Source: Candidatus Ruania gallistercoris (lineage in GTDB: Bacteria > Actinomycetota > Actinomycetes > Actinomycetales > Beutenbergiaceae). From it: DNA of 64,000 nucleotides. How positions within the stretch are numbered: position 1 is the first letter of the stretch; each line of letters starts with the position of its first letter. Both the position numbers and the translations under genes were made by a program. The notes under the pieces were generated by a model. The model was not told the DNA's origin and did no database searches. It was given only the letters and a program-made list of their open reading frames with translations. The stretch is taken from positions 1-64,000 of the forward strand of contig DXBY01000078.1 in NCBI GenBank assembly GCA_019116305.1, given 5' to 3'. Shown here piece after piece: positions 1,612-36,749 of this stretch.

Positions 1612-1617
1612 GCGCAT

Positions 1618-1734: not shown

Positions 1735-1740
1735 ATCGCG

Positions 1741-2532: not shown

Positions 2533-2553
2533 TCCTCGTATAGGCATGCGTGC

Positions 2554-2559
2554 TAGCGT
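2554..2559 (+). promoter_or_regulatory. -10 box of the PhoD-type gene, leaderless
   Basis: TAGCGT is followed by exactly six bases and the GTG at 2566. This spacing supports GTG 2566 rather than the downstream ATG 2572 or ATG 2608 as the start. Confidence 0.45.
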
Positions 2560-2565
2560 GCGATC

Positions 2566-4158: not shown

Positions 4159-4183
4159 CCGCACCTTCCCCGGTCCGGGCACG

Positions 4184-4189
4184 TACCAT
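4184..4189 (+). promoter_or_regulatory. -10 box of the RpiB-like gene, leaderless
   Basis: TACCAT lies six bases upstream of ATG 4196, the same arrangement as the two preceding genes. Confidence 0.45.
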
Positions 4190-4195
4190 CGAGGC

Positions 4196-4681: not shown

Positions 4682-4692
4682 GCAGCACTCCC

Positions 4693-19222: not shown

Positions 19223-19237
19223 GAAGAGAGGCACTAC

Positions 19238-20242
19238 GTGACCGAGACCCCCATCACCCCGCTGCCCGCCGCCGAGGTCGCCCGCCTGGGCGAGCAGGTG
19301 CTGACCGAGGTGAGCTCCGCCGTCGTGGGGATGAGCGAACCGTTGCGGACGGCGCTGGCAACGATCTGCGCCGGTGGGCACGTGCTGTTCGAGGACGTGC
19401 CCGGGCTCGGCAAGACCCTCGCCGCCCGCTGCCTGGCCGCCGCTCTCGGCCTGGAGTTCGCCCGGCTGCAGTGCACTCCGGACCTGCTACCGGCGGACAT
19501 CACTGGCTCGTTCGTGTACGACCCGGCCAGCTCGGAGTTCACCTTCCGGCCCGGTCCGCTGTTCACCGGGCTGTTCCTGGCGGACGAGATCAACCGCACC
19601 CCACCGAAGACCCAGTCCGCGCTGCTGGAGGCGATGGCCGAGCGGCAGGTGACCGTGGAGGGCACCAGCTACACCCTGCCGCAGCCGTTCCACGTGCTCG
19701 CCACCTCCAACCCGGTGGAGTACGAGGGCACCTACCCGTTGCCGGAGGCGCAGCTGGACCGGTTCATGGTGCGGCTGGCCGTGGGCTACCCGGATGCCGA
19801 CGGCGAGGCGGATGTGCTGCTGCGCCGGATCGCGCGGCGGCAGGAGGCGGCCACTGTCGCCCAGGTCACCGATGCCAGCACGCTGCGCGCGATCCAGGCC
19901 GGTGTGGAGGCAGTGGACGCCGACCCGGACGTTGCTCGGTACTGCGTGGACCTGGCCGTGGCCACCCGGTCCCACCCGGCGGTGGAGGTGGGCGCCTCAC
20001 CGCGGGGCTCGCAGGCGTTGCTGCTGGTGGCCCGGTCCCGGGCGGTGCTGGACGGGCGGGAGTTCGTCACGCCGGAGGACGTGAAGGCGATCGCCGTCCC
20101 CGCACTGGCGCACCGTCTGGTGCTCACCCCGGCCGCCTGGGCCCAGGGCACCACGCCCGAAGCCGTGGTCGCCCAGCTCCTCGACCAGGTGCCCGGACCG
20201 GCCACGACCGCGACAGCGAGCGCGGGCGTGGGCCAGCAGTGA
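19238..20242 (+). CDS. MoxR-type AAA+ ATPase
   Basis: 334 residues from GTG, preceded by AGAAGAGAGG. Walker A-like EDVPGLGKTLAARCLA, Walker B LFLADEINRTPPKTQSALLE, sensor 1 ATSNPVEYEGTYPLPEAQLDRF and a C-terminal lid with the MoxR signature. MoxR proteins are chaperone-like ATPases that work with partners carrying VWA/DUF58 domains. The DUF58 gene follows with a 4-bp overlap. Confidence 0.9.
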   Translation: MTETPITPLPAAEVARLGEQVLTEVSSAVVGMSEPLRTALATICAGGHVLFEDVPGLGKTLAARCLAAALGLEFARLQCTPDLLPADITGSFVYDPASSEFTFRPGPLFTGLFLADEINRTPPKTQSALLEAMAERQVTVEGTSYTLPQPFHVLATSNPVEYEGTYPLPEAQLDRFMVRLAVGYPDADGEADVLLRRIARRQEAATVAQVTDASTLRAIQAGVEAVDADPDVARYCVDLAVATRSHPAVEVGASPRGSQALLLVARSRAVLDGREFVTPEDVKAIAVPALAHRLVLTPAAWAQGTTPEAVVAQLLDQVPGPATTATASAGVGQQ

Positions 20243-21588
20243 GCTCGCCGCGCTGGTTCCTCGGGCTGGAGTCGCTGACCCTGGCCGTGATCGGCGTGCT
20301 CGCGCTCGCCGTGGGGGTGCTGGTGCGGCGACCGGACGTGGCACTGCTCGGCGTCCCGTTCCTGCTCTCCTTCGCCTGGGGCTGGATCACCCGCCCGACG
20401 GCGGAGCCTGAGGTGGTCCTGCGCCGTCGGGGGGCTCGTGCTCGAGCAGGCGCTGTCGGCGCCGAGGTGCAGCTGCGGCCCACCCCCGGGGTCGCGATGG
20501 CCCGGCTGCGGATCTCCTCGGCCGGGTTCCGCCCGGTGGAGGCCCTGGTGGACGCCCGGAACGAGCGGGTCCTGGCCACCGAGCTGGCCACGGCGCGCAC
20601 CGGGAGGCAGGAACTGTTCCGGCTGGACCACCTCAGCGCCGGGTTCGAGGCCACTGTGCTCTCCCCGGTGCAGACCGCGCAGCCGTTGCAGATGAGTGTC
20701 CACCCGCCGCTGGTCACCCTGCAGGGCACCCCGGTGCCACCGCAGCTGGCCGGGCTGACCGGGAACCACACCTCACGCCGGGTGGGCGACGGTACCGCGT
20801 TCCGGGACGTGCACCTGTTCACCCCCGGTGACCGGCTGCGCCGGATCGACTGGCGGGTCAGCGCCCGGCGCTCCCTGGACGTGCGCACCGGGCGGTTGAC
20901 CGAGCTGTACACCCGCCGCACGTTCGCGACGGCCGATGCCTCGGTGATGCTGGTGGTCGACTCCCGGGACGCGGTCGGGCCGGACGTGTCCGCCTGGGGT
21001 GGTGGGCAGGCGGCAGCCGTCGACGAACCGATCTCTCTGGACCTGGCCCGCGAGGCGGCGGCCGCGATCGCGCACGTGGTGCTCGCCGCCGGGGACCGCG
21101 TGGGGTTGGACGATCTCGGACTGCGCCGCCGACCGGTGGCCCCGGCGGCGGGCCGGAGCCAGTTCGAACGGATCTCCCGGCGCCTGGCCGCCCTGCACCC
21201 GGAGAGCTTCCCGACGCCCCGCAAGCGTGCTCCGCAGGTGCCCTCGAGCGCACTGGTGGTGGTGTTCTCCACGTTCCTGGACGACGAAGCCGCCCGGATG
21301 GCCCGGACCTGGCGCGGGCAGGGGCACCGGGTGATTACCGTGGACACGCTGCCGCCGGTGCGCACCACTGAACTGGACACCCTCGGCGACTTCGCCTACC
21401 AGGTGGTCCGGCTGGAGCGGCAGGTGCGGTTGGCGCAGCTGACCCGGGCGGGTGTGGAGGTGCTGCGTTGGATCGACCCGCACGCCCCGGCGGGGAGCCG
21501 GGCGATCGACGTGGCCTGGCGGCTGCTCACCCGTGCGCACCGCCGCCGAGGCAGCGGCGTGCCGGGTCGGCCGGGAGCAGTGCGATGA
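20239..21588 (+). CDS. DUF58 domain protein
   Basis: 449 residues. GTG 20239 overlaps the moxR stop (GTGA). Two N-terminal membrane segments are followed by the DUF58 signature FTPGDRLRRIDWRVSARR and a VWA-like fold (VMLVVDSRDAV; LAREAAAAIAHVVLAAGDRVG). It is the usual partner of MoxR ATPases. Its stop codon TGA begins a chain of overlapping ATGA junctions leading to the next gene. Confidence 0.85.
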   Translation: MSSPRWFLGLESLTLAVIGVLALAVGVLVRRPDVALLGVPFLLSFAWGWITRPTAEPEVVLRRRGARARAGAVGAEVQLRPTPGVAMARLRISSAGFRPVEALVDARNERVLATELATARTGRQELFRLDHLSAGFEATVLSPVQTAQPLQMSVHPPLVTLQGTPVPPQLAGLTGNHTSRRVGDGTAFRDVHLFTPGDRLRRIDWRVSARRSLDVRTGRLTELYTRRTFATADASVMLVVDSRDAVGPDVSAWGGGQAAAVDEPISLDLAREAAAAIAHVVLAAGDRVGLDDLGLRRRPVAPAAGRSQFERISRRLAALHPESFPTPRKRAPQVPSSALVVVFSTFLDDEAARMARTWRGQGHRVITVDTLPPVRTTELDTLGDFAYQVVRLERQVRLAQLTRAGVEVLRWIDPHAPAGSRAIDVAWRLLTRAHRRRGSGVPGRPGAVR

Positions 21589-22399: not shown

Positions 22400-23635
22400 A
22401 TGACCGAGACGAACTGGGCCGGCTGCTACACCTACACCGCGCAGCGGCTGCACCAGCCGGACACCGTGTCCCAGGCGCAGCGGATCGTGGCCGGGGCGAG
22501 CCGGATCCGCGCGCTCGGTTCCCGGCACTCCTTCAATGACCTGGCCGACACCGCCGGGGACCTGATCAGCCTGGCCGCACTGCCCACCGACATCCACGTG
22601 GACGAGGAGGCACGCGTGGTACGCGTGGCTGCCGGTGTGCGCTACGGCGACCTCGCCGCCGAGCTGGACCGGGCCGGCTGGGCCCTGGCCGCGATGGCCT
22701 CGCTCCCGCACATCGCGGTGGCCGGCGCGATCGCCACGGCGACCCACGGCTCCGGTGACGGCGTGCAGAACCTGGCGAGCGCCGTCGTCGGCCTGGAGCT
22801 GATCTCCCCGGAAGGGGACCTGGTCACCCTCGGTGCGGACCACCCGGACCTGCCCGGCGCGGTGGTGCACCTGGGCGCACTCGGGGTGATCACCACCGTG
22901 TGGCTGCGGATCGAACCGAGCTACCAGGTGGCTCAGTACGTGATCAACGATGTGCCCTGGGAGCACGTTCTGAGCCACTTCGACGACATCACCTCGGCTG
23001 CCTACAGCGTGAGCCTGTTCACTCGCTGGGACGCCGACGTGGTAGACCAGGTGTGGCTGAAGAGCCGTACCGGGGAGGTGAGCCTGCCGGTCGGTGTGGC
23101 GGCTCCCGGCCCGCAGCACCCGATCCGGGGTGTGGACCCGGCCTGGGCCACCGAGCAGGCCGGGGTCGCCGGGCCATGGTTCGACCGGCTGCCGCACTTC
23201 CGGCTGGAGTTCACCCCCAGTGCCGGTCAGGAGATCCAGGCCGAATACCTGGTGCCCCGCCCGGCCGCGGTAGCGGCGATCGATGCCGTCCGGGAGATCG
23301 CACCGCAGATCGCGCAGCATCTGCAGGTGTGCGAGTTCCGGACGATGGCCGGGGACGAGCTGTGGTTGTCGATGGCCCAGGGGCAGGACAGCGTGGCGCT
23401 GCACTTCACCTTCGACCCGGCACCGGACCCGGTGCGGGCGCTGCTCCCGCTGCTGGAGGAGACCCTCGCCCCGTTCGACGCCCGACCGCACTGGGCCAAG
23501 TGGTTCGCCATGGGCGCTGACCGGCTCGAGCGGCTGTACCCGCGGATGGGAGCCTTCCGCGACCTGGTTCGCCGTTACGACCCGGACGGCAAGTTCCACA
23601 ACGCGTTCCTGCAGCGCACCGTGCTGGAGCGCTGA
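22400..23635 (+). CDS. aldO: FAD-linked alditol oxidase
   Basis: 411 residues. The N-terminal TNWAG motif, FAD-binding segment ALGSRHSFNDLADT with the His expected to carry covalent FAD, HIAVAGAIATATHGSG, and the C-terminal substrate domain (FTPSAGQEIQAEYLVPR, EFRTMAGDELWLS, HWAKWF) closely follow the Streptomyces AldO/XyoA enzymes. Those oxidise xylitol, sorbitol and similar polyols at C1 with O2, giving aldoses and H2O2. A TAGATT -10 candidate lies at 22367-22372 and GAAGAGG precedes the ATG. The sugar catabolic cluster next to it is convergent, so joint control is not shown. Confidence 0.9.
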   Translation: MTETNWAGCYTYTAQRLHQPDTVSQAQRIVAGASRIRALGSRHSFNDLADTAGDLISLAALPTDIHVDEEARVVRVAAGVRYGDLAAELDRAGWALAAMASLPHIAVAGAIATATHGSGDGVQNLASAVVGLELISPEGDLVTLGADHPDLPGAVVHLGALGVITTVWLRIEPSYQVAQYVINDVPWEHVLSHFDDITSAAYSVSLFTRWDADVVDQVWLKSRTGEVSLPVGVAAPGPQHPIRGVDPAWATEQAGVAGPWFDRLPHFRLEFTPSAGQEIQAEYLVPRPAAVAAIDAVREIAPQIAQHLQVCEFRTMAGDELWLSMAQGQDSVALHFTFDPAPDPVRALLPLLEETLAPFDARPHWAKWFAMGADRLERLYPRMGAFRDLVRRYDPDGKFHNAFLQRTVLER

Positions 23636-23666: not shown

Positions 23667-24509
23667 TCAGCCCTTCACTGAGCCGGTGGCCAACCCACTC
23701 ATGATGAACCGCTGCATCACGATGAAGATCACCAGGATTGGCACCACTGCGAGCAGCAGGGTCGGGAACACCACCTCGTAATTGGTGCTGTAGCTGGAGA
23801 CCGCCGCATACACCCCGGTGGTGATGGTCTTGAACTCCGAACCCGGGCCGAGAATCAGCTGTGGGCTGACGAAGTCGTTCCAGGCGCTGAGGGCGTTCAG
23901 GATGAACGCCGTGGCCACGATCGGCTTCATCAGCGGGAACACGATGGTCCACAACACTCGCTGCCGGCCCGCACCGTCGATCGCCGCGGCCTCGTCCAGG
24001 GAGCGCGGCAGCATCCGGATGTAGCCGGTGAAGATGAACAGCGTGAACGGCACCATCGTGGCGGACATGAACAGCACCAGCCCGGGGATCGTGCCCATCA
24101 GCCCGAGGCCCTTGAGCACCAGGATCGCCGGCACCAGGATGATCTGCGGTGGGATGAACATCCCGGCGAGGAAGAACAGCAGCAGGAACCGGAACAGCGG
24201 TGTCGGCGTCCGCGCGATGACGTAGGCGGCCGGGACCGCCGTACCGATCGCCACCAGGTTGCAGGCCAGCACCAGGAACAGCGTGACCGCGTAGCCGTCG
24301 AGCACCGGGAAGGCGGTGTTCGACCAGGCGGCAGCGAGGAAGTCGGTGGAGGCCGTGTCCGGGTCCAGCCCCAGCGGGCTGCGCAGGATCTCCTGCTGTG
24401 GCTTGAACGCGTTCACCACCATGATGTACATCGGCACCAGCATCGCGATCGACAGGAGTGCCACGAACACCACACGCACCCTGGACGCGAACCGCGAACC
24501 ACCCCTCAT
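23667..24509 (-). CDS. Carbohydrate ABC transporter permease, MalG type
   Basis: 280 residues, six membrane segments, and the cytoplasmic EAA loop EAAAIDGAGRQRVLWTIVFP that docks the ATPase. CUT1 family. It overlaps the upstream MalF-type gene by 4 bp (ATGA). No ATPase gene is in the cluster; in many Actinobacteria a shared MsiK-type ATPase energises several such importers. Confidence 0.9.
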   Translation of the reverse strand: MRGGSRFASRVRVVFVALLSIAMLVPMYIMVVNAFKPQQEILRSPLGLDPDTASTDFLAAAWSNTAFPVLDGYAVTLFLVLACNLVAIGTAVPAAYVIARTPTPLFRFLLLFFLAGMFIPPQIILVPAILVLKGLGLMGTIPGLVLFMSATMVPFTLFIFTGYIRMLPRSLDEAAAIDGAGRQRVLWTIVFPLMKPIVATAFILNALSAWNDFVSPQLILGPGSEFKTITTGVYAAVSSYSTNYEVVFPTLLLAVVPILVIFIVMQRFIMSGLATGSVKG

Positions 24510-25417
24510 GAGAGAGCCTCCGCTCCGGATTCCGCGCGCCGGCGCAGCGCGATGATGGTGAACGAGAGCAGCCCGGCAACCAGGATGAGCAGGACGGCCT
24601 GGGCCGAGGCGAGACCGACCTTGTTGTTCGCGAACGACACGGCGAGGATCTCGTACGCCCAGGTCTGGGTGGCATCACCTGGTCCGCCGTTGGTCAGACC
24701 GAGGACCACGTCGTACACCTTCAGCAGGGACAGGATCGAGGTGACGATGGTGACCGTGACCGTGGGTGCCAGTGCCGGCCAGGTGACGTGCCGGAACACC
24801 TGCACCCGGTTCGCACCGTCGATCCGCGCTGCCTCCTGCAGCTCGGCAGAGACCGCCTGCAGGCCGGCCAGGTACAGTACGAGCTGCACCCCGAACTGGC
24901 CCCAGACGATCACGCCGATCATCGTGGCCAGCGCCCAGGTGGGGTCGGACAGGAACGGCAGCGTGTCCGCCCCGGCGCCGGAGAGGATGTTGTTCACCGC
25001 CCCCTGCGGGCCCAGGATGGCCTGCCAGAGGAAGCCGACGATCAGCGCGGACAGCACGTGCGGGTAGAACATCACCGCCCGGGCGAAGGTGTTGAACCGG
25101 TTGGTGCGCTGCAGCAGCAGGGCGAGCCCGAGAGCTATGGCGTTCACCAGGAACGCGCCGATGAGCGCGACCGCAGCGGTCACCACCACAGCCGGACGCA
25201 TCTCGTCGATCGGATCGGTGATGATGCGCAGGTAGTTGTCCCACCCGATCCACTCCGGAGCCTGGCTGGGGATGCCGTTGTAGCTGGTGAAGGAGTAGTA
25301 CACGGCGAAGCCGACCGGGACCACCAACAGTCCGATGTAGACCGCAGCGGCGGGGACGGTCATCACCAGGGAGCCCAGCATCTCCCGTCCCCGCGCCGCC
25401 CTGGAGCGCGCGACCAT
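24506..25417 (-). CDS. Carbohydrate ABC transporter permease, MalF type
   Basis: About 303 residues, six membrane segments, EAA loop EAARIDGANRVQVFRHVTWP. The start is taken at ATG 25417, just after the binding-protein stop, with GGAGG 12 bases upstream; ATG 25441, overlapping the previous gene, is possible and would add eight residues. Confidence 0.88.
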   Translation of the reverse strand: MVARSRAARGREMLGSLVMTVPAAAVYIGLLVVPVGFAVYYSFTSYNGIPSQAPEWIGWDNYLRIITDPIDEMRPAVVVTAAVALIGAFLVNAIALGLALLLQRTNRFNTFARAVMFYPHVLSALIVGFLWQAILGPQGAVNNILSGAGADTLPFLSDPTWALATMIGVIVWGQFGVQLVLYLAGLQAVSAELQEAARIDGANRVQVFRHVTWPALAPTVTVTIVTSILSLLKVYDVVLGLTNGGPGDATQTWAYEILAVSFANNKVGLASAQAVLLILVAGLLSFTIIALRRRAESGAEALS

Positions 25418-25418
25418 C

Positions 25419-26693
25419 TCAGCCCATGGCCTCCGCGTCATACCAGGTGGTCAGGTCCGCGGCGACATCAGCGGCGGGCCGGCCCTGCCACAGTCCCTGC
25501 ACCAGCTCGGTGAACTTCGGGTTGAACCCGGCCACCGGGAGCGCGAAGTCTCCGACGGTCTGGTTCCCGGGCACGGCGAACGACGGCGCCGCCTCCACCA
25601 GCTCCTGCACGCTCGCCGCAAACTCGTCGGCGGTGACGTCCAGGCCCTCCCGGTTGAAGTTGTCCATCTCCGCCTGGGTGGCGATGGCGTCCTCGTCGGT
25701 GACCAGGTACTCGACCAACTGGGTGGCGGCGTCCACGTCGCTGGCCCCCTGGCGCACCATGTACGGGAAGGCGAGGGTCGCCCCCATCGGGCCCGGGTAG
25801 TCGCCCGCCTCCTCGACCGGTGCGGCGAACACCCCCACCTCGAAGTCCGGCGGCGAGGCCGCCAGCGTGGTGGTGAACCAGGAACCCATCGGGTAGATGC
25901 CCACGTCGCCGGCGATGAAGTTGGCCTCCTGGGTACCGCTGTCGGTGGCGACGTCATCGGCGGTGGTGTAGCCGGCCTCGATCCAGTCGGCGACGTGGTC
26001 GAACATGGGCTGGAACTGCTCACCCAGCGTGCTCGAGCCATCCGCCACGCTCTGCTGCCAGCCCGGGGTGGCCACATTCTGCTGCGGGTGCCACATCTGC
26101 TGCACCTGCACACCGGTGGCCCAGTCGGCGGCGAAGCCGATCGGCGTGGGCACCCCCTCGTCCTGGAGCGCCGCCAGCGCGGCGTCGAACTCGTCCCAGG
26201 TCTGCGGGGTCTCGCTGATCCCCGCCTGGGCGAACAGGTCCTTGTTGTAGAAGAGCAGGGACTGCGCCTGCATCCCCACCCCGACGACGTTCACCTGGCC
26301 GTCGGTGGCGTACAGATCGGACATCGGGGTGTCCTGGGCCCACTCGAACTCGGTGAGATCGAGGATCTCCGGTGCGGTGTCCGCACTCGGGAAGATCGAC
26401 TCGATCACATCCGGTGCGGTACCGGCGGCCAGCTGGGAGGGGAACGTCTCGGCGACCGACTGCCCGCTGGGGCCCTCGATCTGGACGTCGATACCGGTCT
26501 CCTCCTCGAACGGGGCGACCAGTTCGTCCCACTTCGCCTGGGTGAGGTTGTCGGTGATGTTCACCAACATCCGCACCGTGCCGCTGCCGCCGTCTTCTTC
26601 TCCTCCGCCGCTGCCACCACAGGCGGTCGCCACCAGTGCCGTGGCCAGGGCGAGAGCGGTCACCGGGACTGCTCGGATGCGTCGTACCGACAT
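25419..26693 (-). CDS. Sugar-binding lipoprotein of a CUT1 ABC importer
   Basis: 424 residues. Lipoprotein signal with lipobox LVATAC, then a Gly/Ser/Glu linker and a MalE-type solute-binding domain (WDEFDAALAALQDEGVPTPI, VGIYPMGSWFT). ATG 26693 is favoured by AAGGAG six bases upstream; earlier ATGs at 26708 and 26720 are less likely. It should capture a sugar or sugar-acid oligomer outside the membrane. A motif shared with the regulator/dehydratase promoter region lies about 25-35 bp before the start, so this gene probably heads its own transcript. Confidence 0.9.
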   Translation of the reverse strand: MSVRRIRAVPVTALALATALVATACGGSGGGEEDGGSGTVRMLVNITDNLTQAKWDELVAPFEEETGIDVQIEGPSGQSVAETFPSQLAAGTAPDVIESIFPSADTAPEILDLTEFEWAQDTPMSDLYATDGQVNVVGVGMQAQSLLFYNKDLFAQAGISETPQTWDEFDAALAALQDEGVPTPIGFAADWATGVQVQQMWHPQQNVATPGWQQSVADGSSTLGEQFQPMFDHVADWIEAGYTTADDVATDSGTQEANFIAGDVGIYPMGSWFTTTLAASPPDFEVGVFAAPVEEAGDYPGPMGATLAFPYMVRQGASDVDAATQLVEYLVTDEDAIATQAEMDNFNREGLDVTADEFAASVQELVEAAPSFAVPGNQTVGDFALPVAGFNPKFTELVQGLWQGRPAADVAADLTTWYDAEAMG

Positions 26694-26715
26694 CCTCGTC
26701 TCCTTCATCGATCCT

Positions 26716-26729
26716 GTCACTTGTCATAC
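26716..26729. promoter_or_regulatory. Candidate operator A of the sugar cluster
   Basis: GTCACTTGTCATAC matches GTCACTTATGATAC at 31456-31469 at 12 of 14 positions; both are AT-rich islands upstream of cluster genes. In the direction of the binding-protein gene it reads GTATGACAAGTGAC, containing a possible -10 TATGAC. TTGTCATACA also resembles FadR/GntR-type half sites (TTGT-N3-ACAA). Binding by the cluster regulator is inference. Confidence 0.4.
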
Positions 26730-26742
26730 ATCCTATCTATGC

Positions 26743-28209
26743 TCACGGGTGGAGGGAACCCTCGCCCGACCGGATGTGGCCCAGGTAGGGGCGGTCACCG
26801 ATCACGGTGACGTCGGTGGGTCGGTTGGAGTCGTCGATGCGGTAGATGCCCTCGTCGGCCACGAAGAACACCGGCGCCTCGGGGTAGGTCAGCTCCTCGG
26901 CCAGCGGCTCCTTGTCCGTCCAGGCGAAGAACGTGCGGCCGAACGTGTCGAGGTCCTTGCGGCCGAAGATGCTCAGGTCGCCGGCGGTGAGCGGGCTCTG
27001 GATCGACCAGTGCTCGCCGTGCTCGGCCCAGATCGCCCGGTCGCTGAGCAGCACCGACTGCCGCTGGCGGGGTGCGAAGACCTCGTCCCAGAATGCGGTC
27101 GGGGTGTCCTGATGGCGCACCAGGAACATCAGGTCGTGGGCGTGCCAGGCGGTACTCGGGGCGACATCGGCCTCGTTGTGCCAGCCGGTGGCCGAGGCAA
27201 AGTAGCCGGCTGGGCTCTGGTACGCCGCGTAGGTGCGCAAGCACTGCTCCAGGAAGTCGGACAGCTCGGGGTCGTCCCGGTCAGCGAGCAGCTCGTCCAT
27301 CCCGTACAGGGACAGGCCCATCCCGGCGATGAGCATCGGCGTGCTGGTCCGACGCCGGAACTCACCGCGCACGTACCAGTACCGGTGGAACCGGGTCTGC
27401 CCACGTTCGTCCCCCCAGGCCGAGCGGACCACGTGCCGGGCGATCCCGAACGCCTCCTCGCGAAGGTCCGGGCGGTCGAATCGCCGCGCACCGAGCACCA
27501 GCGGCACGATCATCAGTCCGTAGTACTCGGCCGGTTCCAGGATCCCGCCCTCGGCCCGGTCAGCGGGTTGCCGGTAGGTGGCCACACAGTCGGCATCGGG
27601 CACACCGGACAGATGGGCCAGCTGCACCAGGGAGTCCAGGTCGTCCTCGAGCTCGTCGGCGTAGACCGGGTCCTCGGACAGCTCGGTATAGCGCAGCTTG
27701 GCCCACACCCGGGCGTACTCCTGGTTGACCGTGCCCTCCGGACTCGGCCGGCCGCCACCGTAGCGGCGGCAGGCGTCCAGGTTGCGGCGCACAGCGGCGA
27801 GGATCTCGGTGACCTCGGCCGCCGGGAGCAGGTCACCGGCCACGCGCAGCCCCTCGAGCAGGCCGAGGCAGCCGGCCATGTTGTGGATCAGCCCGGAAGT
27901 GGCCGACTCTCCCACCTGGAACCCGATGTGCCGGAACTGCCCGTCCGGCTGCACTCTCCTGGCCTGGAAGAGCATCATCGAGCGCCACAGCACCTTCGCC
28001 CGGTCGTCCGGCCGGCGGGCCAGCGCCGTGGCGAAGCCGGCGAGCGCCGGTGCAGCAAACGCCTGGTGGCCGCTGGTGAAGTCCTGGAAGGTTGCCGGGT
28101 TCGTGCCCCACACGCTGTGGTTGTGGAAACCGTGGAGCGCTCCGTCCTCGCCCACCCAGCTACGCAGCCATCCGGCCAGCGCTGCCACGTCGGGAACTGC
28201 TGTGCTCAT
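26743..28209 (-). CDS. Unknown protein, possible (alpha/alpha)6-barrel sugar enzyme
   Basis: 488 residues with no signal peptide, so cytosolic. The sequence is helical and Trp/His/Tyr-rich, with several Asp/Glu/His-containing loops (GFHNHSVWGTNP, TSGHQAFAAPAL, FRHIGFQVGESATSGL, GWHNEADVAPSTAWHAHDLM). This looks like the (alpha/alpha)6-barrel architecture of unsaturated glucuronyl hydrolases or related glycoside enzymes, but I cannot assign a family. It overlaps the aldo/keto reductase gene (ATGA) and precedes the importer genes, so a role in processing the imported sugar is likely. Confidence 0.7.
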   Translation of the reverse strand: MSTAVPDVAALAGWLRSWVGEDGALHGFHNHSVWGTNPATFQDFTSGHQAFAAPALAGFATALARRPDDRAKVLWRSMMLFQARRVQPDGQFRHIGFQVGESATSGLIHNMAGCLGLLEGLRVAGDLLPAAEVTEILAAVRRNLDACRRYGGGRPSPEGTVNQEYARVWAKLRYTELSEDPVYADELEDDLDSLVQLAHLSGVPDADCVATYRQPADRAEGGILEPAEYYGLMIVPLVLGARRFDRPDLREEAFGIARHVVRSAWGDERGQTRFHRYWYVRGEFRRRTSTPMLIAGMGLSLYGMDELLADRDDPELSDFLEQCLRTYAAYQSPAGYFASATGWHNEADVAPSTAWHAHDLMFLVRHQDTPTAFWDEVFAPRQRQSVLLSDRAIWAEHGEHWSIQSPLTAGDLSIFGRKDLDTFGRTFFAWTDKEPLAEELTYPEAPVFFVADEGIYRIDDSNRPTDVTVIGDRPYLGHIRSGEGSLHP

Positions 28210-29210
28210 CTCGTCCTCGCCTGTGTCACGGGGAGCCGGACCAGACCGCGGCGGTCCAGCTCGGCCCAGAGTGTCTCCGGCACCTGGGACCGGATCCGGT
28301 CCACGTTCGTGGCCACGTGTGCGCCGGTCCGCATCCCGAGCACCACCGAGGCCACCGGGGCGAACTGCAGCGGGTACTGCACGGCCAGGTCGGGCAGGGT
28401 CAGTGCGTACTGCTCGGCGATCTCGGCGATCTGCTCGGCTCGGCGGCGCAGGTCCTGCGGTGCCTGCTGGTAGTCGTACCGGGCATCGGCGGGCGGTCGG
28501 GGCCGGGAGAGCAGCCCGGAGTTGTACACCCCGGCCGCCACCACTGCGACTCCGCGCTCCTCAGCAGCGGGCAGCAGCTCAGTCCGGGCCTCGGGGTCGA
28601 GCAGGGTGAGCCGGCCGGCGCACATCACCAGGTCCACATCGGTCTCCCGGATGAACCGGGCGAGCATACGTGCCTGGTTCATCCCCACGCCGACGGCGGA
28701 GATCACCCCTTCCTCGCGCAGCTCCAGCAGTGCCTCGATCGCCGTGGTCGAGGCGTCCCGCCAGTGGTCGTCCGGGTCGTGCAGGTAGACGATGTCCACC
28801 CGGTCCACACCGAGCCGCTCCAGGCTGCCGGCGAGCGAGCGCCGCACCCCGTCGGCAGAGAAGTCCCAGCCCCGGGTGTGCGTCGCCGGGACGTCGAACC
28901 CGTGCTCGTCGCGCAGGTGGGCACGCTCCGGGGTGGGCACCAGGTCACGTCCCACCTTGGTGGAGAGCACGTAGTCCTGCCGGGGCCGGGCCGCCAGAGC
29001 CGCACCGAGGCGGCGTTCGGACAGGCCGAGACCGTAGTGCGGGGCGGTGTCGAAGTACCGGATCCCGGCGTTCCAGGCCGCGTCGACGGCGTCGGTCGCC
29101 ACCTCGTCGGAGATCGCCTGGTTCAGGTTGCCCAGCTGGGCCGCGCCGTAGCCGAGACGGGTCAGCAGTGTCCCGGTGCGCAGCCGGGTCCGGATACCGG
29201 GGTCGCTCAT
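28206..29210 (-). CDS. Aldo/keto reductase, aldose 1-dehydrogenase-like
   Basis: 334 residues from ATG 29210. LGYGAAQLGNL, FDTAPHYGLGLSERRLG with the catalytic Asp/Tyr, STKVGRDLV with the Lys, and DIVYLHDPDDHW with the His place it with L-fucose / D-threo-aldose dehydrogenases. Those oxidise free aldoses at C1 with NAD(P). Overlaps of 4 bp (ATGA) with both neighbours show tight coupling. Confidence 0.85.
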   Translation of the reverse strand: MSDPGIRTRLRTGTLLTRLGYGAAQLGNLNQAISDEVATDAVDAAWNAGIRYFDTAPHYGLGLSERRLGAALAARPRQDYVLSTKVGRDLVPTPERAHLRDEHGFDVPATHTRGWDFSADGVRRSLAGSLERLGVDRVDIVYLHDPDDHWRDASTTAIEALLELREEGVISAVGVGMNQARMLARFIRETDVDLVMCAGRLTLLDPEARTELLPAAEERGVAVVAAGVYNSGLLSRPRPPADARYDYQQAPQDLRRRAEQIAEIAEQYALTLPDLAVQYPLQFAPVASVVLGMRTGAHVATNVDRIRSQVPETLWAELDRRGLVRLPVTQARTR

Positions 29211-30190
29211 CCCAGCTCCTCGGGATGGTGCACCGGCTCGTCCCGGACGAAGCGTTCCACGTCCTGTACCACCTGCAGACCGATCCGGTGCAGTTCGGTG
29301 CCCATCGAGCCGGCGATGTGCGGGGTGAGGACGACGTTCGGCAGCCGCCACAGCTCGCTGGTGGAGGCGGGCGGCTCCGGGTCGGTCACATCCAGGACCG
29401 CCTCCAGCCGGCCCCGGCGCAGCTCCGCCAGCAGCGCTGCCTCATCGACGACGGCTCCGCGGGCGGTGTTGATCACCGTGGCCCCGTCCGGCAGGAGCGC
29501 GAGGATGCGGGCGTCGATCTGCCCGGTGGTGGCAGCGGTGAGCGGCTGGTGCAGGGAGAGCACATGGCTGGCGGCCGCCACCTCCTCCAGGGTGCCGGTG
29601 CGCACGCCCAGGTCCACTGCCTCGCCCTCGGTGAGCATCGGGTCGTAGACGATCACCTCGAGGTCGAACGGGCGGAGCAGCTCGATCACCAGGCGGCCGA
29701 CCTGGGAGGCACCGACGATCCCGACCACCCGTCGGTAGTTGCCAACCCCGGGCCGCGGTGCCGGCTTGTGCCGGAGCACGGAAAAGTCCCCGATAGCCGC
29801 TCGGGTCGCCTTGTTCGCCAACAGGATCATCGCCAGGGTGTACTCGGCCACCGGCACCGCGTTCGCAGCCCGGGCGTTGGCGGCCACCACACCGCGAGCC
29901 GACAGCTTCTCCGGGTCGGCCAAGCAGGTGCGGGCCACACCACCGGCATAGAACACCCCGCGCAGTGCCGGCACCAGACCGCTGTCCACTCGCGGAGCGC
30001 CCCACCCTGCAATCAGCACCTCGGCCTTGGCCAACCGGTCCCGGGCCTCCGGCGAGTCGGTCTCGGTGAGCACCGTACCCACCTCCACCCGGACGGAGCT
30101 GGCCAGTCGTCCCCACAGGTGCGGAGGGAAGATCTCCTCCGCCAGGCTCGGCTCACCGAAAGCGAGCACGGCACGGGGTCGCCGGTCCAT
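29207..30190 (-). CDS. D-isomer specific 2-hydroxyacid dehydrogenase
   Basis: 327 residues. NAD-binding motif GIVGASQVGRLVIELLRPF, catalytic Arg in NTARGAVVDE, Glu near DVTDPEPP and His in LTPHIAGS. ATG 30190 has GGGAGG nine bases upstream. It may reduce or oxidise a keto/hydroxy acid produced in the pathway; substrate not predictable. Confidence 0.85.
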   Translation of the reverse strand: MDRRPRAVLAFGEPSLAEEIFPPHLWGRLASSVRVEVGTVLTETDSPEARDRLAKAEVLIAGWGAPRVDSGLVPALRGVFYAGGVARTCLADPEKLSARGVVAANARAANAVPVAEYTLAMILLANKATRAAIGDFSVLRHKPAPRPGVGNYRRVVGIVGASQVGRLVIELLRPFDLEVIVYDPMLTEGEAVDLGVRTGTLEEVAAASHVLSLHQPLTAATTGQIDARILALLPDGATVINTARGAVVDEAALLAELRRGRLEAVLDVTDPEPPASTSELWRLPNVVLTPHIAGSMGTELHRIGLQVVQDVERFVRDEPVHHPEELG

Positions 30191-30218
30191 CACAACCTCC
30201 CTGGGTGACAGTGCGACA

Positions 30219-31373
30219 TCAGCCGACCCGCGCATCCCGGCGCTGCGCGAGCTGCAGGCCGGCGTCGGCAGAGCGGACATGCGGTCCCGCGGGCACCTCC
30301 CACGCCCCGGTGGCGGTGCGTGCCTCGATCGCTGCCTCGTCCACCTCGATGCCGAGCCCGGGGGCGTCACCGAGCACCAGCCCGCCGTCCTCGATCTCCT
30401 GGTCGACCCGCAGGCCCACCGGCGAGTGCAGGTTCTGCAGCTCGGTGCTCAGGTGGTTCGGCACTGCGGCAGCGGCATGGGCGACCGGGTTGGTGTTGTA
30501 GGCGACCGGGCTGACCGGCAGATCCCGGCCGAGGGCGAGCACGGCAACCCGGAGGAAGTGCGTGATCCCCCAGACGCTCCCGGTCTGCACCACCTCGACC
30601 GCATCGCCGTCCAGCAGGGCCCGGTACTGCTCGAGACCGGTGAGGTTCTCGCCGGTGGCGACCGCCGCCGACGCCGCCCGGGCCACGGCGCGATGCCCGG
30701 GGACGTCCCACCGGCGCACCGGCTCCTCGATCCAGGTCAGCTCCGCACCCTCGTCCACCCGACGGGCCAGGCGCACGGCCTGGTGGCGGCCCCAGCTCTC
30801 GTTGACGTCGTACATCATCGCCGGCTGGTCGCTGTTCGCCCGGAGCACCTCGCGCACGGCGGCGATCCGTTGCAAGTCTCTGTCGACGTCCACCCCGCCC
30901 TTGACCTTGGCGCCGGTGAATCCGCGGTCGGCCCAGTGCTGGTAGAGCGCCACCAGGTCGGCGTCGGAGAGCGCGTAGTCCAGCCCCGAGGCATATCCGG
31001 GCACGAACCGGTCGGCGGCACCGAGCGTGCGCCAGAGCGGTTCGTCGGCCGCTTTGGCCTTGAGGTCCCAGAGCGCCATGTCCAGGGCACCGATCGTGGC
31101 GAACGTCGCCCCGCCGTGCCCGGTCTTGAACACCCGGGCGAGCATCCGGTCATACAGCGCGAAGGTGGCGCGCGGGTCCTGGCCCTCAAGCGCGGGGAAG
31201 AGTCGGTCCACCTCGGCATGACCACCGAGTCCGACGCCGGTGAGCCCCGCATCGGTCTCCAGCAGTACGAGCGGGACCTCGGTCACCCCGTCGGCCACCA
31301 CACCATTGACGTCACCGACCGGTCGCCCCCAGTCGTGCACCGTGGTCAGGGTGCGGTATCCGATAATGCGCAT
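30219..31373 (-). CDS. Enolase-superfamily sugar-acid dehydratase
   Basis: 384 residues, mandelate racemase subgroup. Visible active-site parts: K156-x-K158 (GAKVKGG), metal ligands D189 with N191 (YDVNESWG), E216/E217 (WIEEPV) and E242 (TGENLTG). The proton-abstracting KxK resembles galactarate/talarate or other acid-sugar dehydratases. Expected reaction: dehydration of an aldonate or aldarate to a 2-keto-3-deoxy acid. First gene of the minus-strand catabolic operon, divergent from the FadR-type regulator. Confidence 0.85.
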   Translation of the reverse strand: MRIIGYRTLTTVHDWGRPVGDVNGVVADGVTEVPLVLLETDAGLTGVGLGGHAEVDRLFPALEGQDPRATFALYDRMLARVFKTGHGGATFATIGALDMALWDLKAKAADEPLWRTLGAADRFVPGYASGLDYALSDADLVALYQHWADRGFTGAKVKGGVDVDRDLQRIAAVREVLRANSDQPAMMYDVNESWGRHQAVRLARRVDEGAELTWIEEPVRRWDVPGHRAVARAASAAVATGENLTGLEQYRALLDGDAVEVVQTGSVWGITHFLRVAVLALGRDLPVSPVAYNTNPVAHAAAAVPNHLSTELQNLHSPVGLRVDQEIEDGGLVLGDAPGLGIEVDEAAIEARTATGAWEVPAGPHVRSADAGLQLAQRRDARVG

Positions 31374-31455
31374 GGTGTGCGTTCTTCTCCTGTCTCGGCG
31401 TCGAGGCAGAAGGCCCCGGTGCCCGAACCAGCGTCTCTCTCAGCGCTCGTCACTT

Positions 31456-31469
31456 GTCACTTATGATAC
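31456..31469. promoter_or_regulatory. Candidate operator B of the sugar cluster
   Basis: GTCACTTATGATAC, 12/14 identical to site A at 26716-26729. It sits in an AT-rich island of the 184-bp gap between the dehydratase and regulator genes, next to the palindrome GTTATAAC (31472-31479). On the dehydratase strand it contains TATCAT, a fair -10 box; on the regulator strand TATAAC follows. This is where a divergent autoregulator would be expected to bind. Confidence 0.45.
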
Positions 31470-31557
31470 GAGTTATAACAGTACCACGGTCGGCTACCCT
31501 GGGAGTTCCCTCGGGCGCGGTCGCCCGGTCAGAGGTCGAGTGCGATTGGCGAATCAG

Positions 31558-32307
31558 ATGGAGTCCACACCGGTGCGTCCCCCCGCGGTACCGCTGCCCC
31601 ACCGGCACCGCCCTCCGCTGTCCGAGGCAGTGATCCGAAGCCTGGTCACCGAGATCGTGGTCGGCACCTACCCGCCCGGCTCACCACTACCCACCGCCGG
31701 AGTCCTCGGCGAGCACTACCAGGTGAGTCGGACGGTGATCCGGGAGGCCACCACCTCGTTGACCGAGAAGGGACTCGTGGCCACCCGGCAGGGCTGGGGC
31801 ACAGTGGTCCTGGACGAAGGCCAGTGGAGCCTGCTCGACCCGATGGTCCTGGACGCGCTCTTCCAACGCGAGGACCGGCTGGTCTACCTGGACAACCTGA
31901 TCGAGATCCGCGCGCTGCTGGAGTGCGCGATGGCGTCCCGGGCCGCGGACCGGATCGATGACGAGGGCCGCCGGGAGCTGCGCGGCGCCGTCGAGCGGCT
32001 CGCCGCACTGCGCGAGGACCCGGACGGCTACTCCCAGGCGGACATCGAGTTCCACGAGTGCATCCACCAGATCTCCGCGGACGCGTTCGGGCGTGCCATC
32101 GTGAAGGGCATCCAGGACAAGGCCGTCCGTTCTCCGCAGTACCGCGGACGCCCCGGCGAGGAGGAGATGGCGATCACGCACAGCCAACACACCAAGATCG
32201 CCGAGGCAATCCTCGCCGAGGACGGCGACGCTGCCGCAGCCGCGATGCGCGAGCACATCACCTCCTCCTGGCAGCGGCGCCGCCCGGACGCCGACGACAC
32301 CCCCTGA
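31558..32307 (+). CDS. FadR-type GntR-family regulator
   Basis: 249 residues. Winged helix (EIVVGTYPPGSPLPTAGVLGE, VSRTVIREATTSLTEKGLVATRQGWGT) and the all-helical FCD domain with probable metal/ligand residues (EFHECIHQ, HTKIAEAI, MREHI). Relatives respond to sugar acids or other organic acids. ATG 31558 is the first clear start; GTG 31540 in frame with AGAGG upstream is an alternative. Likely controls the divergent catabolic operon and the importer. Confidence 0.85.
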   Translation: MESTPVRPPAVPLPHRHRPPLSEAVIRSLVTEIVVGTYPPGSPLPTAGVLGEHYQVSRTVIREATTSLTEKGLVATRQGWGTVVLDEGQWSLLDPMVLDALFQREDRLVYLDNLIEIRALLECAMASRAADRIDDEGRRELRGAVERLAALREDPDGYSQADIEFHECIHQISADAFGRAIVKGIQDKAVRSPQYRGRPGEEEMAITHSQHTKIAEAILAEDGDAAAAAMREHITSSWQRRRPDADDTP

Positions 32308-32437
32308 CGACGGAGCCCCGTCCGGGCTGAGCCCTGGGCCGACCCGCGCCATCGCGCACGCCACGACGCCCCGCACCCGATCCAGATGGCCTGCCACAGG
32401 CGGGACATCGGCACCGCACCCTCCGCCGTCGTCAGCG

Positions 32438-32463
32438 AGCACATGTGATATGTGTTAAGTGCT
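32438..32463. promoter_or_regulatory. 26-bp imperfect palindrome before the beta-helix gene
   Basis: AGCAC (32438-32442) and GTGCT (32459-32463) frame CACAT-N5-ATGTG, with an AT-rich TTAA, 62 bp upstream of the start codon of the secreted beta-helix protein. The AT-content stands out in the otherwise GC-rich 217-bp gap (32308-32524). It may be an operator; the binding protein is unknown and the motif differs from sites A and B. Confidence 0.35.
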
Positions 32464-32524
32464 ACCTGTCCGATCAGGCTCGTGGCGGTGCTGCCGCCAC
32501 CACACATTGGGAGAGAGCTCGACG

Positions 32525-35500
32525 ATGAGAACACGACAGCGGCTCCGCATCGCGGCGCTGACGCTGGCCCTGGGGTTGACCGCACCGCTGGTCAGCACCG
32601 GCGGCACGGCCACTGCAGAGGCCACCACCGGCACCGGGCCGGTGGTCTACGTGGCCACCGACGGCGACGATGCCAACCCCGGCACCCTGGCCGAACCCTT
32701 CGCCACCATCACCGCCGCACGGGACGCCCTCGCCGGGCGCACGAGTGCGGAGGAGGTGGGTACTGTATGGATCCGCGGCGGCCAGTACACCCTGAACGAG
32801 GCGATCACCCTCTCCGGTGAGGAGAACTCCTGGGTCACCTACGGTGCCTACCGCGGCGAGGACGTCCACCTCACCGGCGCACACCACCTGCCTACTGAGG
32901 ACTGGGACCGGCTCGGTGACCTCAGCGAGGACGAGCTGTCCCAGACCGCACTCTCCTCCCACTCCCGCCTACCGGAGAACGTCCGCGACGACGTCTGGGT
33001 CTACGACCTGGGCGAAGCCGACGTGAACCCCGGCACCCTGTACAAGAACGGCTTCAACTGGGTGCCGCAGCCGTTCGCGCCCGAACTGACCGTGGACGGC
33101 GGACTGCAGACCCTCGCCCAGTACCCGAACGAGGGCGACTGCAGCACCACCGAGACCGAGTGCCACCTGTGGGGTACCGGGGACAAGTGGGGCGCCGACG
33201 GCACCGAGGACCTGATCCAGGTAGACCTCGACGAGCGTTTCGGGCTCCAGGACGACTGGCAGACCAGTGGCACCACGCCCCGCTCGCAGTTCGAGGACAA
33301 GAAGCAGACCCGCGAGGACCCGGACACCTGGAGCCTGGAGGAGATGTACCGGATGACGCCCTCGATCTTCGAGGTCGGCGGCCGCCTCCTGGACGGTGAC
33401 CGGTACCAGACCTGGGCCCCGGAGACGGTGCCGACCGTCGAGGATGCCGGCACCCGCGGGTTCGACGAGTACTCCGACATCCCGGTGCAGGCCGACCCCG
33501 CCTGGATCGAGGACATCGACAACTCCCAGTACGAGACCGAGGGCTGGCTGTCGGGCTACCTGGGCAACAACTACGCGGTCGACATGGTGCGCATCCTGTC
33601 CTGGGACGGCACCACGATGTACACGAAGTACCCGTCGATGTATATCCCGCAGGACGAGTGGACGAAGGTCACCGCGATCAACATCCTCTCCGAGCTGGAC
33701 GTGGCCGGGGAGTACTACATCGACCGTTACGACGGTAACGACGTGCTCTACTACCTGCCCGAAGACGGCACGATCGAGGGGCACGACATCTCCCTGTCCA
33801 CCTTCGACGACAACTTCTTCCGGCTGGAGGGCACCAGTGGTGTGACTCTGCGCGGCCTGACCATGACCGACTCGCTCACCTCCGGGGTCCAGCTCCTGGA
33901 CGCCCACGACACCCTGGTCGACGGGGTGGAGATCGCGAACGTGAGCATGGACGCCGTCCGGATCGGTGAGACCACCGAGTCGATCACGGCGATGCCCGAC
34001 TACGAGGCAGTCCGGGGTGGCACCGGCAACGTGGTACAGAACTCCTACCTGCACGACCTCGGTGGCGGTGGGGTGCTGCTCGGCGGCGGTGACCGGGACA
34101 CGCTGGAGCCTGGCAACAACGTCGCCCGGCACAACGAGATCGCGCGGTTCTCCCGGTTGGCGACCTACACCCCGGCCGGCTACCTGTACGGCGTCGGGAA
34201 CACCTTCGAGTACAACGAGGTCTACGACGCACCGCACATGGCGATCCAGATCATGGGCAACGACATGCAGATCACCAACAACTACTTCCACGATCTCGTG
34301 CTGAACGCGGGTGACCAGGGCGTGATCTACACCGGCCGGGACTACACCTACCTGGGCAACGAGGTGGCCTACAACCTGTTCGAGGGCATCGGCGGTTCGA
34401 ACGATGCGTTCTACATGGACGACGGTGCCTCCGGGATGAGGTTCCACCACAACGTGGTCAAGGACGCGCACTCCGGTCTGTACTTCCAGTCCGGGCACAG
34501 CAACACCGCGAACGACAATGTGTTCATCAACGTCGGGCGGACCGGTCATGACCGCCAGTACGCCCTGGACGGGGAACCGGGTCTGCCGGTCTCGAACGCC
34601 TGGGTGGTGCACAGCAGGTTCAACGCCTTCCTCGACGTGCGCGAGGGAGAGAAGTACTCCGCCACCCCGGAGATCGTCCAGACCTGGCACGATCACTACA
34701 CCAGCGGGGAGCACTCCTACACCGACGGCGAACCCATCCTGTTCCCGGAGATCGAGGACTGGTACATCCCGCGGGTGAGCGAGACCGGCGAGGAGTGCCT
34801 GCCGGAGGACTACGCCGTCGATGCGACCAACGGCTGCAGCCGGGCCACGGTGTGGGAGGACCCGAACTCGCTCTATGTGCCGGCGCGGGTGGAGATCGAC
34901 CACTCGGTGATCATCGACGGCGGCGAGTACGCACCCAGTACGGCCCACTTCAGCGAGCCGGCGGCGGAGTACACGCTGTCCACCTGGTCCGAGAAGATCA
35001 ACACCAACCTGGTGCAGCCGGAGAGCACCGAGGCTGCCGGGTTCGACCTGGACACGATGCAGTTCACCGAAGCCGGACAGGTCGCCGAGAGCTTCGGCAC
35101 CGAGTGGGTCCAGACCTGGAACTCGCTGGTCTCCCGCGACGGCATCGGCCGACCGGAGGCCGGCGATGCCACCGAGCTGTGGCAGACGGTCTCCCAGGCG
35201 GAAGAGGTGCTCGCCACCGACCCGGACGAGGACACGGCCGCCCTGGAGGAGGCCCTGAGCCACGCGATCGAGGTCGGCGGGCGCACCGATGCCGGTCAGG
35301 CGGAGATCGACGAGGCTGTGCAGGCACTGCGTGCAGAGCTCGAGGCACTCCTCCCGCCGGCACCCGGGACCCCGGTGCTCAGCGACGACAACGCCCATGA
35401 TGGTCTGCGCGGCAGCGCGTACACCGTCACCGCGAACCTGTGGTGGGGGCAGAACGGCACCTCGTTCCGCCTCTTCGAGAACGGTGAACTGATCGCCGAG

Positions 35501-35929
35501 GAAGAGCTGAGTGACGACACCCCGCACGCGCAGGAGGTCCAGGTCCCGATCGAGGGCCGGGCCAACGGTGAGTACACCTACACCTGCGAGCTGGTGAATG
35601 CCGGCGGTGTCACCGAGTGCGAGGCGCACACTGTGGTCGTGGACGCGGCCGCGCCGGGCACACCGGTGCTCAGCCACGACAACTGGGACGGCGACGGGGA
35701 CTTCACTCTGCGCGCCGACCTGTGGTGGGGCACGAACGCGACGTCCTGGACGTTGACCGAGGACGGCGAGCAGATCGACACCGGGGAGCTGACCGACCAC
35801 ACCCCGCGTGCCCAGCAGGTCGAGATCCCGGTCACCGGGGCCGAGTCCGGCTCGCGGACGTACGTGATCACGTTCAGCAACGAGCTCGGCAGCACCGACA
35901 GCGAGGAGCTCACCGTCACGGTCGACTGA
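32525..35929 (+). CDS. Secreted right-handed beta-helix protein, possible polysaccharide lyase
   Basis: 1134 residues from ATG 32525 (GGGAGAG upstream). A Sec signal peptide (RIAALTLALGLTAPLVS) is followed by a DUF1565-like start (VYVATDGDDANPGTLAEPFATI) and a long right-handed parallel beta-helix (about 40-760; repeats such as NVVQNSYLHDLGGGGVLLGG, ITNNYFHDLVLNAGDQGVIY). A helical FIVAR-like segment (about 910-960) and two C-terminal Ig-like domains of about 90 residues follow, both starting PGTPVLS-DN and containing LWWG-N-TS, as in chitinase-associated modules. It probably cleaves or binds an extracellular polysaccharide whose products feed the nearby importer; this link is inference. Confidence 0.8.
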   Translation: MRTRQRLRIAALTLALGLTAPLVSTGGTATAEATTGTGPVVYVATDGDDANPGTLAEPFATITAARDALAGRTSAEEVGTVWIRGGQYTLNEAITLSGEENSWVTYGAYRGEDVHLTGAHHLPTEDWDRLGDLSEDELSQTALSSHSRLPENVRDDVWVYDLGEADVNPGTLYKNGFNWVPQPFAPELTVDGGLQTLAQYPNEGDCSTTETECHLWGTGDKWGADGTEDLIQVDLDERFGLQDDWQTSGTTPRSQFEDKKQTREDPDTWSLEEMYRMTPSIFEVGGRLLDGDRYQTWAPETVPTVEDAGTRGFDEYSDIPVQADPAWIEDIDNSQYETEGWLSGYLGNNYAVDMVRILSWDGTTMYTKYPSMYIPQDEWTKVTAINILSELDVAGEYYIDRYDGNDVLYYLPEDGTIEGHDISLSTFDDNFFRLEGTSGVTLRGLTMTDSLTSGVQLLDAHDTLVDGVEIANVSMDAVRIGETTESITAMPDYEAVRGGTGNVVQNSYLHDLGGGGVLLGGGDRDTLEPGNNVARHNEIARFSRLATYTPAGYLYGVGNTFEYNEVYDAPHMAIQIMGNDMQITNNYFHDLVLNAGDQGVIYTGRDYTYLGNEVAYNLFEGIGGSNDAFYMDDGASGMRFHHNVVKDAHSGLYFQSGHSNTANDNVFINVGRTGHDRQYALDGEPGLPVSNAWVVHSRFNAFLDVREGEKYSATPEIVQTWHDHYTSGEHSYTDGEPILFPEIEDWYIPRVSETGEECLPEDYAVDATNGCSRATVWEDPNSLYVPARVEIDHSVIIDGGEYAPSTAHFSEPAAEYTLSTWSEKINTNLVQPESTEAAGFDLDTMQFTEAGQVAESFGTEWVQTWNSLVSRDGIGRPEAGDATELWQTVSQAEEVLATDPDEDTAALEEALSHAIEVGGRTDAGQAEIDEAVQALRAELEALLPPAPGTPVLSDDNAHDGLRGSAYTVTANLWWGQNGTSFRLFENGELIAEEELSDDTPHAQEVQVPIEGRANGEYTYTCELVNAGGVTECEAHTVVVDAAAPGTPVLSHDNWDGDGDFTLRADLWWGTNATSWTLTEDGEQIDTGELTDHTPRAQQVEIPVTGAESGSRTYVITFSNELGSTDSEELTVTVD

Positions 35930-36014: not shown

Positions 36015-36749
36015 ATGTCCGTACCCACTCCTCAGGTGATCGGCATGCTCGGCGGGATGAGCTGGCAGTCCACGGCGACGTACTACCAGCTCGCCAACGA
36101 GCTGGTCGGCGAGCGCCTCGGCGGCCTGCACTCCGCCCGCCTCGTGCTCGCCTCCGTGGACTTCGCCGAGGTCGAGCAGATGCAGCAGGAGGACCGATGG
36201 CAGGAGGCCGGTGAGCTTCTCGCCCGCGAGGCCGCCGGGCTGCAGGCGGCCGGTGCCGAGCTGCTGCTGATCTGCACGAACACGATGCACAAGGTGGCCG
36301 GCCAGGTCCAGGACGCGGTCGACATCCCGCTGCTGCACCTGGCGGATGCCACCGCCGCGGCCATCACCGGCCGCGGACTGACCACTGTGGGGCTGCTCGG
36401 TACCGCGTTCACCATGGAGCAAGATTTCTACCGCGACCGGCTGGCCGCGCACGGACTGCGGGTGCTCGTGCCGGAGGCAGCGGACCGGACCGAGGTGCAC
36501 CGGATCATCTTCACCGAGCTGGTCCGCGGCGACCTGACCGAAGCCTCCCGGCAGGTCTACCGGGAGGTGATCGGCCGCCTGGTCGCCGCCGGCGCGGAGG
36601 GCGTGATCCTGGGCTGCACGGAGATCGAACTGCTGATCGCCGCGGCGGACTCCCCCGTGCCGGTTTTCCCCACTACCCGGCTGCATGTGCAGGCGGCCGT
36701 GGACGTGGCGCTCGGCACAGTCGAGGTCGGCGCGTTCGGGCCTGGCTGA
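36015..36749 (+). CDS. Aspartate/glutamate racemase family protein
   Basis: 244 residues. MLGGMSWQSTATYYQ at the N-terminus and the two-Cys catalytic pair C87 (ICTNTMHK) and C201 (GCTEIELL) are typical of cofactor-independent Asp/Glu racemases. It probably interconverts an acidic amino acid. Length and motifs are normal. CACGAT lies six bases before the ATG, so it may be leaderless. Confidence 0.88.
   Translation: MSVPTPQVIGMLGGMSWQSTATYYQLANELVGERLGGLHSARLVLASVDFAEVEQMQQEDRWQEAGELLAREAAGLQAAGAELLLICTNTMHKVAGQVQDAVDIPLLHLADATAAAITGRGLTTVGLLGTAFTMEQDFYRDRLAAHGLRVLVPEAADRTEVHRIIFTELVRGDLTEASRQVYREVIGRLVAAGAEGVILGCTEIELLIAAADSPVPVFPTTRLHVQAAVDVALGTVEVGAFGPG

Follow-up and report, generated by a model that had tools for sequence, protein, structure and literature searches.

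Nine genes at positions 23667-35929 of the window (the whole stretch of DNA analysed, 64,000 nucleotides) form a catabolic cluster that is real, conserved and for the most part explainable; central to it is a single enzyme family that has yet to be described. From the observed gene content and synteny we infer reaction steps that would probably make this cassette a system taking a glycan to a deoxysugar acid. The best candidate for its sugar is L-fucose or one closely related to it (L-rhamnose, L-galactose).

The cassette and its conservation

Seven of the genes lie on the minus strand and two on the plus strand. Read from 31373 down to 23667, the minus-strand genes overlap or are closely spaced, and encode ENO, an enolase-superfamily protein resembling acid-sugar dehydratases (30219-31373; MR_MLE_N/C and alignments); HADH, of the D-2-hydroxyacid dehydrogenase family (29207-30190; PF02826, 2-Hacid_dh_C, 149.5 bits); AKR, an aldose 1-dehydrogenase-like aldo/keto reductase (28206-29210, its start directly overlapping the end of HADH; PF00248, Aldo_ket_red); AA6, a cytosolic protein of 488 aa with an (alpha/alpha)6 barrel and a C-terminal beta domain (26743-28209; AlphaFold model and Foldseek); SBP, the sugar-binding lipoprotein of the importer (~25419-26693; SBP_bac_1, 105.6 bits; lipobox LVATAC); and CUT1-type ABC permeases 1 and 2 (24506-25441 and 23667-24509; both PF00528, BPD_transp_1). 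The plus strand carries a GntR/FCD regulator (31558-32307; PF00392 and PF07729) and BHX, a secreted, GH141-like protein that combines a right-handed beta-helix with beta-sandwich domains at the C-terminal end (32525-35929; Pfam Beta_helix). Signal peptide and lipobox were recognised by sequence. Every gene named in the sequence-only reading is present at these coordinates, and Pfam confirmed the families.

Scanning genome contigs with AA6 yielded 51 loci, and the 25 that are actinobacterial with long flanks, among them Glycomyces, Promicromonospora, Krasilnikoviella, Isoptericola, Agromyces, Streptomyces, Kitasatospora, Prauserella and Nocardioides, were used for gene counts. Importer genes, including both permeases, accompany AA6 in all 25, HADH in 24, ENO in 22, and AKR and a beta-helix protein in 21 each; GntR/FCD orthologs adjoin ENO in most loci. 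Three of the four genomes without a local ENO have an ENO ortholog (56-64%) elsewhere. Order and content are kept across Actinobacteria, and this synteny excludes chance clustering. The genes on either side, an FAD-binding/ALO-type lactone or alditol oxidase convergent with the cassette and not conserved alongside it (22400-23632) and an aspartate racemase-like gene (36015-36746), have no counterpart in any of the 51 loci and were rejected as members; since they never occur in orthologous loci, the boundaries at 23667 and 35929 are right. The earlier claim that these genes make a coherent set is thus borne out, both by the conserved order and by the unmatched flanks. A search of the open-access literature found no paper on such an operon in Actinobacteria.

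Between ENO and the GntR gene lies the motif ACTTATGATACGAGTTA (31459-31475), a candidate operator predicted from the sequence; orthologous loci have the same motif upstream of ENO. Upstream of the beta-helix gene a CACATGTCATACATGTTC-like palindrome recurs, in the window at 32440-32470 and in loci L011, L017, L023 and L030; it is unlike the ENO operator motif, possibly indicating a second regulator. Since the sites upstream of BHX differ from the ENO motif, co-regulation of both genes by the same GntR protein is unsupported. A scan for sigma-70 promoters was uninformative.

AA6 and the secreted protein BHX

Family search and structure prediction, named in the sequence-only reading as the check on these two proteins, returned an (alpha/alpha)6 barrel with no Pfam or NCBIfam family for AA6, and for BHX a beta-helix closest to GH141 BT1002. 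AA6 gave no match above cut-off in either database, nor any in a profile search of solved-structure sequences. Its AlphaFold model (pLDDT 88, pTM 0.91) and Foldseek agree on the cytosolic (alpha/alpha)6-like protein described earlier. The Foldseek matches were GH127, AGE epimerases (including cellobiose epimerases), GH76 and GH88/105, with GH127 best by E-value and the epimerases and unsaturated glucuronyl hydrolases best by TM-score. Like the GH127 beta-L-arabinofuranosidases, AA6 combines an (alpha/alpha)6 barrel with a beta domain, and 21 of 27 AA6 homologs have a sub-threshold match to Pfam GH127. However, AA6 scores 16.4 bits against the Pfam GH127 catalytic domain, under the cut-off of 24.9, is much shorter than the GH127 enzymes, and fits them weakly (TM-score about 0.4). 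In addition, no Cys is invariant or close to invariant across 27 aligned AA6 sequences, leaving AA6 without the invariant Cys for a Zn-Cys nucleophile or the Zn-binding Cys/Glu. Membership in GH127 was rejected on these grounds.

AA6 is an (alpha/alpha)6 barrel outside the described families, present in at least five phyla. Homologs with ~40-47% identity are found in Paenibacillus, Anaerolineae, Verrucomicrobia, Bryobacteraceae and Anaerofilum, and those of Paenibacillus and Anaerofilum adjoin GH88, heparinase-like, Gfo/Idh, AKR, FAH and sulfatase genes. With such surroundings, the substrate of AA6 may include a uronic acid. Heparinase II/III-like proteins lie by the AA6 homolog in Anaerofilum (L061:5022-14128), where a sulfatase is also present, and in Paenibacillus (L056:4068-5957); such neighbours suggest a uronic-acid or sulfated glycan.

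We propose that AA6 may act as an intracellular glycosidase. It is rather unlikely, in our estimate, that AA6 is instead an epimerase or lyase working on an imported disaccharide or uronic acid, with the uronate context of Paenibacillus and Anaerofilum being ancestral and HADH taking the 2-keto-acid product. The heparinase II/III, GH88, Gfo/Idh and sulfatase neighbours would fit this, but the actinobacterial loci contain neither lyase nor GH88. The Foldseek matches to AGE/cellobiose epimerases and GH88/GH105 also point that way, as do weak matches to the C5-epimerase family PF06662 in 5 of 27 members; yet TM-scores of ~0.5-0.6 are too low to carry function, and a glycosidase, GH127, leads by E-value. 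Further support comes from Agromyces and Leucobacter loci without local AKR and ENO, where HADH still adjoins AA6; from this association, HADH may serve the product of AA6 rather than the end product of the route.

BHX has a profile match to BT_1002 (5mqp) in the N-terminal part, and 5mqp is also the top Foldseek match (E 7e-11) of its model (pLDDT 65). BT1002 is a GH141 alpha-L-fucosidase of the RG-II system, acting on L-fucose in RG-II (PMC10154630). The two proteins share the parallel beta-helix, this being the best fold match, but are only about 13% identical in the fold alignment, and BHX has extra C-terminal beta-sandwich domains. Residues D597 and D632 of BHX, 35 apart, are invariant in 42 proteins and can be likened, by spacing only, to the catalytic Asp pair D523/D564 of BT1002, which are 41 apart. 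The GH141 insertion domain PF21231 had no match at E 0.01 in BHX or its orthologs; further beta-helix proteins encoded in the loci do carry it.

Predicted oxidative enzymes and the steps outside the window

The best solved relatives of AKR are L-galactose dehydrogenases, which upholds its description as aldose dehydrogenase-like, and its tetrad D54/Y59/K85/H144 shows little or no variation across 22 sequences. HADH has a Rossmann domain and an Arg/Glu/His triad (R244, E272, H291) conserved in 29 sequences; its nearest families are PGDH and glyoxylate reductase. ENO was read earlier as an acid-sugar dehydratase with KxK, in agreement with its MR_MLE_N/C domains and conserved AKVKGG. It has the two-domain enolase fold, the KxK and conserved metal ligands in common with L-talarate/galactarate dehydratase (2pp0) and the MR-subgroup dehydratases, but differs from them in the His-Asp dyad, which is absent in all aligned orthologs: the PH of the dyad is replaced by PV or PA followed by a conserved Tyr, and the Asp partner is missing. 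That AA6 represents a new glycoside hydrolase, epimerase or lyase family, with a hitherto undescribed activity dedicated to the oligosaccharide made by the GH141-like enzyme, and is paired with a dehydratase that works in the absence of the His-Asp dyad, is a tentative proposal to which we give somewhat less than an even chance. If true, AA6 and ENO define a new glycan catabolic system in Actinobacteria, with an altered form in Paenibacillus and other phyla.

Other copies of ENO were also observed. A second one, around 18600-20600, lies next to a GntR gene in L022, L026, L027, L029, L032, L033 and L043, in most of them with a ThuA-family gene next in line; the ENO of the window resembles this copy (75-78%) more than it does the in-operon ENO. 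The genome of the window itself has a second ENO paralog (63-66%) on contig C50 (L073), at 1-5126, beside a GntR gene (53%) and two ABC permeases. This sister sugar-acid locus is cut by the contig end, and a search with its last 127 bases found no continuation.

The absence of a lactonase, kinase and aldolase had been taken to mean that the chemistry is incomplete or novel. The absence holds for the cassette in the window, but not for the system: an amidohydrolase, of the lactonase family, occurs in 13 of the 25 long-flank actinobacterial loci, and DeoC and a ribokinase in one branch. The conclusion drawn from it was largely wrong. A single operon of Prauserella cavernicola (L032), and likewise of Streptomyces NRRL WC-3626 (L022), reads FAH-ENO-HADH-AKR-amidohydrolase-AA6-SBP-perm-perm-RhaM-SDR-BHX, the L032 amidohydrolase between AKR and AA6 being PF04909. 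Glycomyces (L059) and Promicromonospora (L017) also have the amidohydrolase, FAH and SDR, in a different arrangement. SDR and the FAH hydrolase are found in 11 of the 25 loci, and RhaM lies inside 10 orthologous clusters.

The window's own genome carries these genes on other contigs. FAH and the opening portion of an SDR lie on contig C62; contig C132 continues that SDR and also holds a second AKR (AKR2) and RhaM. The end of C62 and the start of C132 share exactly 131 bp, an overlap that makes the SDR gene continuous, so the two are very probably neighbours. Joined, they form one operon, FAH-SDR-AKR2-RhaM, and a GntR/FCD regulator gene is oriented divergently to it. FAH matches that of Prauserella L032 at 68%; the figures are 61% and 73% for the two parts of SDR and about 52-56% for AKR2; RhaM, beside AKR2, scores 70.4 bits against PF05336 (cut-off 23.4). 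FAH is closest to 2,4-diketo-3-deoxy-L-rhamnonate hydrolase (PDB 8gsr), and an FAH ortholog reached 292 bits against the NCBIfam model for that enzyme, below its cut-off of 500. Relatives of FAH at least 56% identical were present in 21 of 21 cassette-bearing genomes tested. At the family level, then, the genome carries putative enzymes of the SDR 4-dehydrogenase and FAH diketo-acid hydrolase types.

We consider it very improbable that the pathway is truly incomplete or novel, with the ENO product passing straight to HADH and lactonase, SDR and FAH unused. The window does lack these three genes, and none was found within the flanks examined of several loci, L029 and L034 among them; against this stand the FAH-SDR-AKR2-RhaM operon of the same genome, the full operon in sister taxa and the FAH relatives in every genome tested. 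In the complete oxidative route, the lactonase is the weakest link in this genome, where the one candidate is a 43% match on C184. An L-fucono-1,5-lactonase of COG3618 was found in the amidohydrolase superfamily, according to the title of a reference cited in PMC6946681 and PMC11199699.

A route by kinase and aldolase was rejected for this genome, in which the best match to the Promicromonospora ribokinase-like or DeoC protein is just 32-33%. One branch (Promicromonospora, Glycomyces, Isoptericola, Krasilnikoviella) has DeoC, a ribokinase-like PfkB and RbsD in addition, a hint that the glycan holds a second sugar, or that the sugar is a different one. The three genes lie downstream of the permeases at L017:14571-16784, and also in L011, L012, L013, L015, L016, L020 and L023.

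The proposed pathway and known routes

In the pathway that we propose, the GH141-like BHX would cut the glycan outside the cell, SBP and the two permeases would import the oligosaccharide, with the ATPase presumably supplied in trans, and AA6 would free the monosaccharide in the cytosol. AKR would then oxidise the sugar at C1 to a lactone, to be opened by an amidohydrolase-type lactonase or by spontaneous hydrolysis, and ENO would dehydrate the resulting sugar acid to a 2-keto-3-deoxy acid. Oxidation at C4 by SDR would allow the FAH hydrolase to split the diketo acid into pyruvate and a 2-hydroxy acid, and HADH probably converts a 2-hydroxy acid and a 2-keto acid arising en route into one another. 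The SDR, FAH, mutarotase and second AKR would come from C62/C132, outside the window. Gene content and the sister operons support the path first suggested, from polysaccharide through oligosaccharide import to an oxidative, non-phosphorylated sugar-acid route.

The substrate had been thought impossible to deduce by eye. It can now be narrowed to a sugar of the fucose or rhamnose type, but is not settled: the mutarotase family, the nearest relatives of FAH and AKR and the GH141 link suggest fucose, rhamnose or L-galactose, and we put L-fucose itself just short of an even chance. The same scheme could serve a pentose or hexose in place of a 6-deoxy-L-hexose, such as D-arabinose or L-galactose, giving pyruvate and glycolate or glycerate, which HADH would process as a glyoxylate/hydroxypyruvate-type dehydrogenase. 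This would give HADH a role that suits its nearest families, PGDH and glyoxylate reductase, agrees with the kinship of AKR to L-galactose dehydrogenases, and has a parallel in an analogous pentose route that yields glycolate (PMC6336799). We nevertheless regard it as unlikely, given the RhaM-family mutarotase and the diketo-deoxy-rhamnonate-hydrolase-like FAH within the same operons, and the tie of GH141 to fucose.

With a fucose- or rhamnose-type sugar, an undescribed (alpha/alpha)6 family becomes tied to a defined route, which narrows the search for its substrate to glycans containing fucose or rhamnose. The results suggest that soil Actinobacteria use a full non-phosphorylating route for deoxysugars, fed by an importer of its own, and exemplify how a 'missing' pathway step may just sit on another contig.

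The closest known system is the non-phosphorylating route 3 for L-fucose and L-rhamnose (FucM-FucA-FucB-FucC-FucF-FucG), which comprises a mutarotase, 1-dehydrogenase, lactonase, dehydratase, SDR 4-dehydrogenase and hydrolase (PMC11199699). Across the genome and the sister operons its enzyme types are matched by a mutarotase, a candidate 1-dehydrogenase, a candidate lactonase of the amidohydrolase type, a putative enolase-superfamily dehydratase, an SDR and an FAH hydrolase. The present system differs in that the candidate 1-dehydrogenase is an AKR and that the His-Asp dyad seen in enzymes of the L-fuconate dehydratase type is missing from ENO. HADH is an addition: the L-fucose route as published has no step for a D-2-hydroxyacid dehydrogenase. 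Finally, the gene set is split over two loci in the window's genome, and three further components accompany it, namely the uncharacterised (alpha/alpha)6 protein, the CUT1 importer and the GH141-like enzyme.
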